The translations under genes were made by a program, and so were the position numbers. Shown piece by piece: positions 58,905-64,000 of a DNA stretch of 64,000 nucleotides. Below the pieces are notes generated by a model. It did not search any database. It saw only the letters and a program-made list of their open reading frames with translations, and was not told where the DNA came from. The stretch is from Fusobacterium mortiferum ATCC 9817 (GTDB lineage: Bacteria; Fusobacteriota; Fusobacteriia; Fusobacteriales; Fusobacteriaceae), in assembly GCF_000158195.2 (NCBI RefSeq), contig NZ_GL987987.1, forward strand, positions 62,001-126,000, written 5' to 3'. How positions within the stretch are numbered: the stretch's first letter is position 1; each line of letters begins with the position of its first letter.

Positions 58905-60266
58905 TTATACTGTTACATCTTTTATCCAATGTAGAGTTTTATATCTCCAAAGAGCAAATATTAACTTGATAACTTCACAAGATTCTGCAAGTCCTATAAG
59001 AATAAAAATAGGAACTTTGAAATATGCTCCTATAAAAGCTAATGGAACACCATATAACCAAAGTGGTAAGATATCTAAGTAAAAAGCTACTTTTGTATCT
59101 CCACCTGCTCTAAATAATCCAATTAGTATAGCCCAGTTTACCATTTTAAAGAAAACAAAAATTCCATATACTCTTAAAGTTTTTTCAGCAAGAAGAGCTA
59201 TATCTGGTGATAATTTATACAAAGCTATAATATTTCCTGTAAGAAGTTGTACTAAGATAAAGCTAAAAGTAGCCATACCAAAGGCAACTAAAATAATTTG
59301 TTTAGAGTAGGCAATGACTTTATTTTTATCTCCGCTACCAATAGTATGTCCAATAATAACAGAAGCAGCATTAGAAATTCCCATAAATAATATAGCAGAA
59401 ATAGCAGAAACCACATCAGCTATCTGTACACAAGCAGATTGTACAGTACCAAGTTTTGCATAGGCAACTGATAGAGAGATAATTCCTAGTATCCAAAGCA
59501 TCTCAGTAAATATAACAGGAGAAGATACTTTTATAATCTCTTTTATAAGATTTTTAGGAATATGTAGATATGATTCTAATTTTCCTTTAAGGTTGAAGTC
59601 TTTTTTATAGATAATAGTTAGTATAATACACATCTCTACAAATCTTGCTAAAATTGTTGCAAGAGCAGCTCCTTTTTCCTCAAGTTTAGGAAGTCCTAGA
59701 TTACCATAGATTAGACAGTAGTTAAAGAAAGTATTGGTTGCTACTCCAATAGAAGCTGAAATCATAGGAAATTTAGTAAGCCCCATAGCACGTAAAGAAA
59801 ATCCCATACTAGAAGATATAGAGTAGAATATATAACAAGGAACTACAACTTTAAGATACGAGGTACCAATTCTTAAAACTTCTGAATCTTTTGAAAAAAT
59901 TCCTATAATAAAATCAGCCTTAAAAAAAGCTACAAGAGCAAATAACATAGATACTGCAAAAGCTGCTCTTACCATAAGTCCTAATATTTTTCTAATTAAT
60001 TCAAAATTTCTTTTTCCATAGTATTGAGCTATAAATACTCCCATACCACTACATATTCCAAAGATAATCAAATCTAAAATCCGATAGACACTATTGGCAA
60101 AACCAACAGAAGCTATATAGTCAGTACCAAGTCTTCCTATCATAAGATTATCAATAAAATTTAAAGATGAAGATACAAGTTGTTGTATCATCAATGGAAT
60201 ACCAATAACTAAGAATTTTTTGTAAAACTCTTTTAAATCAATTTTTTCATTGAGTAAATTACTCAT
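58905..60266 (-). CDS. MATE-family multidrug/sodium efflux transporter
   Basis: 453 aa, 12 hydrophobic segments. N-terminal half: IPLMIQQLVSSSLNFIDNLMIG, SVGFANSVYRIL, GMGVFIAQYYGKRN; second half: QIADVVSAISAILFMGISNAASVIIGH. Exports cationic drugs or dyes in exchange for Na+ or H+. AGGTTGT precedes the ATG (weak), monocistronic. Confidence 0.93.
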   Translation of the reverse strand: MSNLLNEKIDLKEFYKKFLVIGIPLMIQQLVSSSLNFIDNLMIGRLGTDYIASVGFANSVYRILDLIIFGICSGMGVFIAQYYGKRNFELIRKILGLMVRAAFAVSMLFALVAFFKADFIIGIFSKDSEVLRIGTSYLKVVVPCYIFYSISSSMGFSLRAMGLTKFPMISASIGVATNTFFNYCLIYGNLGLPKLEEKGAALATILARFVEMCIILTIIYKKDFNLKGKLESYLHIPKNLIKEIIKVSSPVIFTEMLWILGIISLSVAYAKLGTVQSACVQIADVVSAISAILFMGISNAASVIIGHTIGSGDKNKVIAYSKQIILVAFGMATFSFILVQLLTGNIIALYKLSPDIALLAEKTLRVYGIFVFFKMVNWAILIGLFRAGGDTKVAFYLDILPLWLYGVPLAFIGAYFKVPIFILIGLAESCEVIKLIFALWRYKTLHWIKDVTV

Positions 60267-60343
60267 AATAACAACCTCCCCAGCATTACCTATATTTTAC
60301 CAATGAAGTTAAAAAAAGACAATGAAAAATTCTCAAAAAACTA

Positions 60344-60372
60344 TTGACAGTTAAGATTAAATGATTTAAGAT
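60344..60372 (+). promoter_or_regulatory. groESL promoter
   Basis: TTGACA (60344-60349), 17 bases, TAAGAT (60367-60372), just upstream of the CIRCE operator so that HrcA binding blocks early transcription. Confidence 0.8.
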
Positions 60373-60386
60373 ATTAATGTAAAAGA

Positions 60387-60413
60387 ATAGCACTCGTTGT
60401 ATAAGAGTGCTAA
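60387..60413 (+). promoter_or_regulatory. CIRCE operator (HrcA binding site)
   Basis: TAGCACTC (60388-60395), nine bases, GAGTGCTAA (60405-60413); only the first base of the consensus arm differs. Repressor HrcA binds here and releases on heat stress. Confidence 0.95.
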
Positions 60414-60431
60414 TAAAATGGAGGGATATAG

Positions 60432-60701
60432 ATGAAAATAAGACCTATTGGAGAGAGAGTTTTAGTGAAACCAGTTAAAGTAGAAGAGAAGACAGCAAGT
60501 GGAATTATTCTTCCAGGAGCAGGAGATAAAGAAAGACCTAATATGGCTGAAGTAATAGCTATTGGAAAGGGAGAAAAATTAGAAGATATAAAAGTTGGAG
60601 AGAAAGTAGTGTATTCTAAATTTTCTGGTACTGAGATAAAAGATGGAGATGAAAAATATTTAGTATTAAATATAGAGGATATTTTAGCAATTGTTGAGTA
60701 A
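60432..60701 (+). CDS. groES: Co-chaperonin GroES
   Basis: 89 aa. MKIRPIGERVLVKPVKVEEKT with the mobile loop GIILPG and C-terminal strand VLNIEDILAIVE. Caps the GroEL chamber. Controlled by the CIRCE operator. The 19-base gap to groEL confirms the operon. Confidence 0.98.
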   Translation: MKIRPIGERVLVKPVKVEEKTASGIILPGAGDKERPNMAEVIAIGKGEKLEDIKVGEKVVYSKFSGTEIKDGDEKYLVLNIEDILAIVE

Positions 60702-60714
60702 TTATTGGAGGTAA

Positions 60715-62337
<1,623 letters not shown>

Positions 62338-62427
62338 TAATAATAAAAAATTGTTGAAATATATGATAGGTTTTTATGTACTATTTTAAATAAAAAAATA
62401 CTAAAAAAACTAAAAAAATAAAATAAT

Positions 62428-62456
62428 TTGACAAAAATTTTAAAATATTGTATATT
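62428..62456 (+). promoter_or_regulatory. Promoter of the glycerophosphodiesterase transcript
   Basis: TTGACA (62428-62433), 17 bases, TATATT (62451-62456), followed by a leader of about 110 bases. Confidence 0.75.
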
Positions 62457-62477
62457 ATGTAATATATAGAATATTAG

Positions 62478-62541
62478 CTGGGAGACATGGAGAAGCTATT
62501 AACTAAGAAGTTAATTGTAACTTGTGTTTTCCAGTTTTTTT
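62478..62541 (+). promoter_or_regulatory. Structured leader ending in an intrinsic terminator
   Basis: Outer stem CTGGGAGACA (62478-62487) with TGTTTTCCAG (62525-62534), pairing at all ten positions with two G-U, followed by seven T. Inside sits a perfect hairpin ATTAACT/AGTTAAT-type (62498-62504 and 62509-62515). The U-run ends about 30 bases before the gene start, so transcription would stop unless an antiterminator acts, as GlpP does in Bacillus glp leaders. Confidence 0.6.
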
Positions 62542-62572
62542 ATTGAATTTTTTAATTAAAAGGAGGAAAATT

Positions 62573-63292
62573 ATGAGTAAAATTTTTGCACATAGAGGAT
62601 ATAGTGGAAATTATCCTGAGAATACAATGTTAGCTTTTAAAAAAGCTATAGAGTGCGGAGTAGATGGAATAGAGTTAGATGTTCAACTTACAAAAGATGG
62701 GGAAGTAGTAATTATTCACGATGAAACTATTGATAGAACCACTAATGGAAAAGGGTATGTTGTGGATTATACTTATGAAGAATTAGAAAAATTTGATGCA
62801 TCATTTAAGTTTGAAAATGTAGGCTTTAATAAAATTCCTACTCTTAAAGATTATTTTGAATTGGTAAAAAATTTAAAGGTAATAACAAATATTGAATTAA
62901 AAACAGGAATAAATGAGTATTTAGGGATAGAGGAAAAGGTTTGGAAATTGATAAAAGAATATAACCTAGAGGATAGAGTTATTATATCTAGTTTTAATCA
63001 TTTCTCTGTTATGAGAATGAAAAAAATTGCTTCCCAATTAAAGTATGGATTTTTATCAGAAGATTGGATAATAGATGCTGGGAAATATACTCATTCTCAT
63101 GGAGTTCAATGTTATCATCCAAGACATAATAATTTGATACCTGAAGTTATTGATGAGTTAAAGAAGTATAATCTTGAGATTAATACTTGGACAGTAAATG
63201 AAGAAAAAGATATGAGATATTTGTACTCAAAAGGAATAGATGTAATTATAACAAATTATCCTGAGTTAGCTAAAGAGATAAAAAATAAATAA
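62573..63292 (+). CDS. Glycerophosphodiester phosphodiesterase (GDPD)
   Basis: 239 aa, cytoplasmic (no signal peptide when started at 62573, where AAAAGGAGGAAAA precedes the ATG; a longer frame from 62522 reaches into the leader terminator). Catalytic motif FAHRGYSGNYPENTMLAF, GIELDVQLTKDGEVVIIHD, DRTTNG, and INTWTVNEEKDM near the end. Splits glycerophosphodiesters to glycerol-3-phosphate and alcohol. Regulated by the upstream terminator leader. Confidence 0.92.
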   Translation: MSKIFAHRGYSGNYPENTMLAFKKAIECGVDGIELDVQLTKDGEVVIIHDETIDRTTNGKGYVVDYTYEELEKFDASFKFENVGFNKIPTLKDYFELVKNLKVITNIELKTGINEYLGIEEKVWKLIKEYNLEDRVIISSFNHFSVMRMKKIASQLKYGFLSEDWIIDAGKYTHSHGVQCYHPRHNNLIPEVIDELKKYNLEINTWTVNEEKDMRYLYSKGIDVIITNYPELAKEIKNK

Positions 63293-63312
63293 AAAATAGG
63301 TAGGAGAGAACT

Positions 63313-64000
63313 ATGATAGATAATTTAGAAAAAATTCTTGTAATTATAAATGCTTGGTTATGGGGTAAATGGTTAGTTTTTGTATTATTGGGATTAGGAA
63401 TTTTATATACAGTAACTAATGGTTTTATTCAGGTAAGATATTTTAAATTTATTATTAAGAAAACGTTGATTGATTCTTTTAAGGCTAGAAATGAAGATAA
63501 AGGTGAGGGATCAATTTCCTCTTTTAAAGCTATGATGGTAACATTAGCTGGAAATGTAGGTGGAGGAAATGTTGTAGGGATTGCTACTGCTATTGCTGCT
63601 GGAGGAATGGGAGCCGTATTCTGGATGTGGTTTGCTGCTTGTTTTGGAATGGCTTTAAAATATGGAGAGATTGTACTTTCACAATTGTATAGAGGAAAGG
63701 ATTCACAAGGAAATCTTTTAAGTGGACCTATGTATTACATTAGAGATGGACTTAAAGCTCCTTGGTTAGGGATAGTTATTGCGGTTCTTATGTGTACTAA
63801 GATGATGGGAGCTAATCTAGTTCAATCTAATACTATTTCAGGTATTCTATACTCTAACTATAATATACCTACTTGGATTACAGGTATAGCATTAATTTGT
63901 TTCTTAATGGCAATAACTTTAGGTGGTTTAAAAAGAGTTGCTAATATAGCTACATCACTTGTTCCAATGATGTCAGTATTTTATATTGTAGTAGGGATTT
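63313..64000 (+). CDS. Sodium:alanine/glycine symporter (AGCS family), 3' end beyond window
   Basis: Partial: the first 229 residues are in the window. It starts with MIDNLEKILVIINAWLWGKW; the AGCS signature follows (ALAGNVGGGNVVGIATAIAAGGMGAVFWMW, here TLAGNVGGGN), with GPMYYIRDGLK and several membrane segments. Couples Na+ influx to uptake of small amino acids. TAGGAGAG precedes the ATG; it lies 20 bases after the GDPD gene. Confidence 0.93.
   Translation, partial: MIDNLEKILVIINAWLWGKWLVFVLLGLGILYTVTNGFIQVRYFKFIIKKTLIDSFKARNEDKGEGSISSFKAMMVTLAGNVGGGNVVGIATAIAAGGMGAVFWMWFAACFGMALKYGEIVLSQLYRGKDSQGNLLSGPMYYIRDGLKAPWLGIVIAVLMCTKMMGANLVQSNTISGILYSNYNIPTWITGIALICFLMAITLGGLKRVANIATSLVPMMSVFYIVVGI

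Follow-up and report, generated by a model that had tools for sequence, protein, structure and literature searches.

Introduction

The closest described counterparts of the leader presented here are found in Bacillus subtilis. PMC9604022 reports, for the promoters of glpD, glpT and glpFK in that species, a GlpP site together with a 5' untranslated region that contains a terminator; all three are activated by GlpP, with no induction when glpP is absent. The leader described here lies in a 64,000-nucleotide stretch (the window) of the 2.67 Mb genome G000 (C1:62001-126000), upstream of a gene for glycerophosphodiester phosphodiesterase (GDPD). A first reading made from the sequence alone (the sequence-only reading) had picked out a promoter and a two-tier hairpin ending in seven U before this gene, had noted a likeness to Bacillus glp leaders and had considered GlpP-type antitermination possible, with a riboswitch-like ligand sensor as the alternative.

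Our analysis favours the first of these suggestions: the window leader is probably, at about 0.85 in our estimate, a terminator whose action depends on the antiterminator protein GlpP. The assignment draws on sequence anatomy, on exclusion between predicted folds, on conservation and on linkage to glpP and glycerol genes, and from these we infer the binding of GlpP, its ligand glycerol 3-phosphate and the direction of the response. The presence of glpP in the gene cluster, the recurrence of the leaders and a plan common to those of Bacilli have all strengthened the original suggestion.

Anatomy of the leader

The features of the locus are collected in Table 1. The proposed promoter is a near-consensus site and the top-scoring of the 14 promoter-like sites in 60200-64000; since this count is not above chance (shuffle mean 17.7), the call is based on position and on the number of consensus matches. 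The two-tier hairpin could also be located precisely. In the predicted fold 62476-62487 pairs with 62525-62536 to give a 12-bp outer stem, an inner hairpin lies at 62490-62523, and seven T (U in RNA) occupy 62535-62541. The folding energy of 62461-62545 is -23.8 kcal/mol, compared with -12.3 +/- 2.8 kcal/mol for 200 shuffles, none of which was as stable. The hairpin was absent from the list produced by a simple terminator scan, probably owing to the scan's demand for an unbroken stem and a loop of 3-8 nt. An intrinsic terminator is predicted, as in GlpP-controlled leaders, between the promoter and a gene whose identity as GDPD was borne out by Pfam.

Table 1. Features of the GDPD leader and adjacent genes, in window coordinates.
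Feature	Position	Strand	Evidence
Promoter TTGACA-17-TATATT	62428..62456	+	11/12 consensus bases matched
Box hairpin, proposed GlpP-bound antiterminator	62475..62498	+	Profile models; paired stem; folds alone in short transcripts
Intrinsic terminator	62476..62541	+	z -4.07; predicted fold and bases
Ribosome-binding site AAGGAGG	62560..62566	+	Sequence
GDPD gene, proposed regulated gene	62573..63292	+	PF03009, E 6.3e-53; ATG at 62573
Sodium:alanine symporter family gene	63313..64000, runs past window end	+	PF01235

A further element, absent from the sequence-only reading, overlaps the 5' arm of the terminator. This hairpin, which we call the box, comprises a 5-bp stem (5' arm UAGCU, 62475-62479; 3' arm AGCUA, 62494-62498) and the 14-nt loop GGGAGACAUGGAGA (62480-62493) with two GGAGA repeats. 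Predicted folds of window transcripts contain the box at lengths of 30-52 nt, while at 58 nt and above the terminator side prevails. The full leader is predicted to have an energy of -23.2 kcal/mol when folded freely and of -7.3 kcal/mol with the box forced, in which case the hairpin beside the U run is not formed. As modelled, box and terminator are mutually exclusive, only one of them being able to form, and the leader has the anatomy of antitermination. In the minimum-energy folds of 56 of 56 selected leaders, part of the box is paired with terminator sequence downstream of it, counting those in which at least two of the five bases of the box 3' arm, or at least three loop bases, are so paired.

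In the mechanism that we propose, RNA polymerase would start near 62463, the expected start of the RNA, and the box would be the first hairpin made. GlpP with glycerol 3-phosphate would bind the box and so hold bases of the terminator 5' arm, the terminator would be blocked and the GDPD operon would be transcribed. In the absence of GlpP and ligand, the stronger terminator would displace the box once its 3' arm had been made, and transcription would stop.

The hairpin might instead be an unregulated terminator at the end of groESL transcription, with a leak of constant size into the GDPD operon; groEL (62337) is some 140 nt upstream of it, and no other strong terminator was noticed between. 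A plain terminator, however, requires no box, whereas boxes recur before glpF, glpO and dhaK, and the GDPD genes of four relatives (G007-G010) retain promoter, box and terminator together. In one of these, G008 (L105, the sole context read), the GDPD gene does not adjoin groEL. We regard an unregulated terminator as highly unlikely.

Gene neighbourhood

The window GDPD protein is 86% identical to the GDPD of Fusobacterium mortiferum An814 (L044). Downstream of the symporter gene, within locus L068 (G000:C1:124300-136000), follow an MgtC-family gene, glpP, a gap, glpF, glpK and a glpO-like gene, beyond which lie genes for a pyridine-nucleotide oxidoreductase and a DUF1667 protein. The sequence-only reading had recommended a search for glpP, and the gene proved to be in the cluster itself, three genes downstream of the GDPD gene (PF04309, E 6.9e-63). 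The glpO-like oxidase has DAO and Fer2_BFD domains; its nearest NCBIfam model is type 2 glycerol-3-phosphate oxidase, at 353.7 bits and below the model cut-off of 460. The downstream row is a glycerol cluster containing the antiterminator gene.

Two further such leaders are present in this genome, one before glpF and one before the glpO-like gene. They were found by reading and by their boxes: a whole-leader DNA search of the genome gave 42 matches, and the three that were read, the best besides the leader itself (L002-L004), are not such leaders. All three leaders of the genome fold more stably than shuffled sequences (z -4.1 for GDPD, -5.9 for glpF and -4.8 for glpO). In its gene content, with GDPD and with leaders also before glpF and the glpO-like gene, the set matches control of genes for glycerol and glycerol 3-phosphate.

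Between the terminator of the glpF leader and glpF itself lies an insert of approximately 640-700 bp (L068:3960-4680; G000:C1:128259-128979). Its reverse-strand frames carry paired-cysteine motifs and look, by eye, like a transposase remnant; part of the insert is masked, and immediately before glpF it has another hairpin followed by a U run. Unlike this arrangement, the glpF leader directly adjoins glpF in those genus members that have one among the loci read. GlpP control of glpF may have been severed by the insert in the present genome.

The antiterminator-versus-terminator layout would also be compatible with another RNA-binding protein, for example of the BglG/SacY or ANTAR (EutV) type, and such proteins are common. 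ANTAR targets are two short hairpins with 6-nt loops, a feature absent from the window leader, whose hairpins are predicted to have loops of 14 and 4 nt. Two GGAGA repeats in a loop of 14 nt set the window element apart from those paired hexaloop hairpins, the leader has no Rfam match, and glycerol 3-phosphate is the ligand suggested by the target genes and by glpP nearby. Control by a different protein family is accordingly, in our judgement, exceedingly improbable.

Recurrence of the box and predicted regulon

Comparison with related genomes, the other check that the sequence-only reading had proposed, showed that the core of the leader recurs before glpF, glpK, glpO, dhaK and GDPD genes of relatives. 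The GDPD leaders of relatives (L016-L019, L021-L024) have in common a box with a short stem and a GA-rich loop, the latter consisting of GGAGA, one to three bases, and UGGAGA or a variant. The stems vary and yet pair: UAGCU/AGCUA, AAUCU/AGAUU, GUAGU/ACUAC, UUGAC/GUCAA and, within a longer stem, UUUU/AAAA.

This was assessed quantitatively by swapping arms between leaders. For 41 selected Fusobacteriota leaders the mean uninterrupted stem was 4.66 bp, against 3.31 bp after swapping, and for all 56 selected leaders 4.43 against 2.81 bp, with none of 5000 swaps as high in either case. The effect was weak for the 15 Firmicute leaders (3.80 against 3.39 bp; 191 of 5000 as high), because most of them have GUG/CAC in common. 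In alignments A2 and A3, no more than 3 of 500 shuffles matched the observed paired cells, both-side-changed cells or covariation score. Neither the count of covarying pairs (131-151 of 500 shuffles) nor that of pair types (98-133 of 500) was exceptional.

Box patterns made by eye were superseded by profile models. The 14 training rows of model R1 belonged to the GDPD, glpF and TRAP classes, and over 98 genomes of the phylum the model gave 88 matches at E <= 0.1. A cut-off of E 0.00244 was chosen afterwards, next to the first coding match (E 0.0027), and the 27 matches within it precede glpF (14), dhaK (6), GDPD (4), glpK (2) and a TRAP transporter gene beside glpP (1). These downstream genes were identified by eye from N-terminal sequence, with Pfam applied to one dhaK and one TRAP protein. 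Fifteen of the 27 matches are letter-identical to training rows; the remaining 12 comprise six before dhaK, two before glpK (identical to each other), three before glpF, two of which differ from a training row by one base, and one before GDPD. The dhaK and glpK leaders were recovered even though both classes were absent from the training set. Among the 61 weaker matches (E 0.0027 to 0.1), 24 were read, picked partly for nearness to glpP or recurrence in relatives, and these proved to be eight real leaders and 16 stretches of coding or unrelated DNA.

The window box itself was recovered first in the 64 kb by each of three leave-out models. The values were E 7e-4 (next match 1.6) with 20 rows lacking GDPD rows and the genome itself, E 1.3e-3 (next 2.5) with 14 rows from other genera only, and E 0.018 (next 1.9) with seven rows from dhaK and TRAP leaders only.

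By eye, a box lies within 330 nt after glpP, often before glpF, at 23 of 28 loci, three of which (L075, L076 and L078) have variant loops; the 28 are all but one (L090) of a set of 29. No box was seen within that distance at the other five (L072, L074, L080, L084 and L097); at L072, model R2 has a match farther downstream of glpP (E 0.048). A box is present between glpK and glpO in all five genus members examined. Beside glpP in G035 (L084), the GDPD gene has a strong terminator-like leader in which no box is recognisable.

GlpP-type leaders precede dhaK, encoding dihydroxyacetone kinase, in seven genomes (L131, L132, L146 and L157-L160) and, by eye, also in G005 (L214). With dhaK, the predicted regulon is wider than the Bacillus targets. 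In three genomes a box precedes the binding-protein gene of a TRAP transporter (L164:6661-6693, minus strand; L165:2601-2633 and L167:1101-1133, plus strand), and in two of them glpP adjoins. This is a candidate transporter of glycerol 3-phosphate or a glycerophosphodiester. Two Clostridium-like genomes (L110 and L120) have a box-like hairpin and a terminator upstream of glpP, the stretch in question lying, in one of them, within GDPD locus L034; GlpP would be autoregulated in these two genomes.

Leaders in the presence and absence of glpP

PF04309 was found in 51 of the 98 genomes of the phylum. R1 matches at the cut-off occur in 18 of these 51 and in 3 of the 47 others (Fisher p 5e-4, with the cut-off post hoc and kinship ignored). 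The 33 glpP-bearing genomes without such a match count against the GlpP reading; the filters of the scan were strict, and R1 itself probably favours AGCU stems. Three genomes (G005, G006 and G011) have glpP and yet, by eye, no box before GDPD (L020, L026 and L025, respectively); the GDPD region of G005 (L107) has no R2 match either.

The three glpP-less genomes with an R1 match, G001-G003, belong to the F. mortiferum group, are each 99% complete and are the nearest relatives of the present genome by GDPD identity (86-87%). None has a PF04309 match at E 1e-15. A search with the GlpP protein found nothing in G001 and, in G002 and G003, matches at 0.010 and 0.021, each in a stop-containing frame. 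No glpK was found in the three genomes at E 1e-40, and dhaK was found neither in them nor in the present genome. At their GDPD loci (L099-L101) GDPD and MgtC remain, while the symporter gene and the block glpP-glpF-glpK-glpO are absent.

The GDPD leader is kept in all three and still folds. This persistence counts against control by GlpP and favours a riboswitch, in which the box would need no protein and would itself bind a metabolite, for instance glycerol 3-phosphate: the loop GGAGAUAUGGNGA is retained, whereas the inner hairpin has diverged and differs between G001 and G002. The box is intact in G001. At a loop position where 13 of 14 rows of A2 have A, however, G002 and G003 have U and C, and in one pair of the stem A faces G, which fits drift after loss of glpP. 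To judge from these substitutions, the leader of G002 and G003 may well be a decaying relic. The leaders moreover cluster with glpP across the phylum, as counted above, and the element is, in our judgement, very small for a metabolite aptamer. None of the Rfam 15 families reaches its gathering score anywhere in the window, and at E <= 10 the segment 62300-62620 yields two implausible matches (E 7 and 7.4). A known riboswitch was rejected on these grounds, in keeping with the earlier impression that no known class matches, and the ligand sensor once offered as the alternative to GlpP gains nothing from Rfam. We consider a riboswitch very improbable.

The same low expectation attaches to a related idea, that the box is itself the sensor and works in the F. 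mortiferum group despite the loss of glpP and the glycerol block. Were this so, the box would bind glycerol 3-phosphate directly or recruit another protein, and GlpP would have been a dispensable accessory to a switch made of RNA.

On the preferred reading, that of a terminator controlled by GlpP, the glpP-less species provide a natural test of the leader's need for the protein. The mechanism of antitermination is already known. Our literature search, with its limited coverage of subscription journals and of the first Bacillus GlpP studies, found no title describing a GlpP leader in Fusobacteria. Nor did it turn up any account of the mechanism's presence and regulon in Fusobacteriota, of GDPD, dhaK and TRAP genes as targets, or of the common RNA element. 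GlpP antitermination would be extended from Bacillus to Fusobacteriota, with a predicted regulon of the GDPD operon, glpF, glpK, glpO, dhaK and a TRAP transporter, and scattered glp leaders would be unified as a single RNA element having a conserved loop, a variable yet paired stem and no Rfam match.

Comparison with known systems

A pattern search of 49 Firmicute loci (four being longer stretches of counted loci) found the box plan in 23, before glpF and glpD, in agreement with the likeness to Bacillus first noted for the window. The plan consists of AAGUUAAUA or similar, a short stem, GGAGA-nnn-GGAGA, a closing stem and an overlapping T run; in G007-G010 the Fusobacterium glpF leaders likewise contain AAGUUAAUA. 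The eye-made patterns found no box in front of distant Firmicute GDPD genes.

Profile models were also compared across the two phyla. Model R3, built from 15 Bacilli rows only, gives no convincing match to the window box, which it matches partially, at E 8.1 and as the 20th of 25 rows; this counts against the GlpP reading. Applied to the window and the downstream cluster together, it has its top match on the glpO leader (E 0.63). In 24 Fusobacteriota loci, eight of the nine best R3 matches fall on leaders (E 0.22-1.6) and one elsewhere (L018:3547). In the reverse direction, the Fusobacteriota models gave no convincing match to Firmicute boxes (R1, 16 loci; R2, 17 loci). As judged from such sequence matches, the link across phyla appears good for the set of leaders and weak for the window leader alone. 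PF04309 proteins are also carried by E. coli and Thermotoga maritima.

Among other antitermination systems, the BglG/LicT/SacY leaders with their RAT sequences resemble the window leader in having a protein-stabilised hairpin that overlaps a terminator, but the protein family is unrelated to GlpP. The dual-hairpin leaders of ANTAR (EutV) similarly achieve antitermination via hairpin capture, whereas the window element is a single large-loop hairpin.

The GlpP leaders of B. subtilis glpD, glpFK and glpT, as judged from Bacilli relatives, appear to share with the window leader a promoter, a small GGAGA-n-GGAGA hairpin and an overlapping intrinsic terminator. Judging from those relatives and from PMC9604022, they also share glycerol genes as targets and a GlpP encoded nearby. 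There are also differences. The window leader belongs to another phylum and heads the row GDPD, sodium:alanine symporter, MgtC and glpP. Its stem is UAGCU/AGCUA, in contrast to the GUG/CAC or CGGU/ACCG of Bacillus-type boxes. Finally, the main stem of its terminator captures the 5' arm and loop of the box, whereas in the glpF and glpO leaders of the same genome it is loop bases and the 3' arm that are captured.
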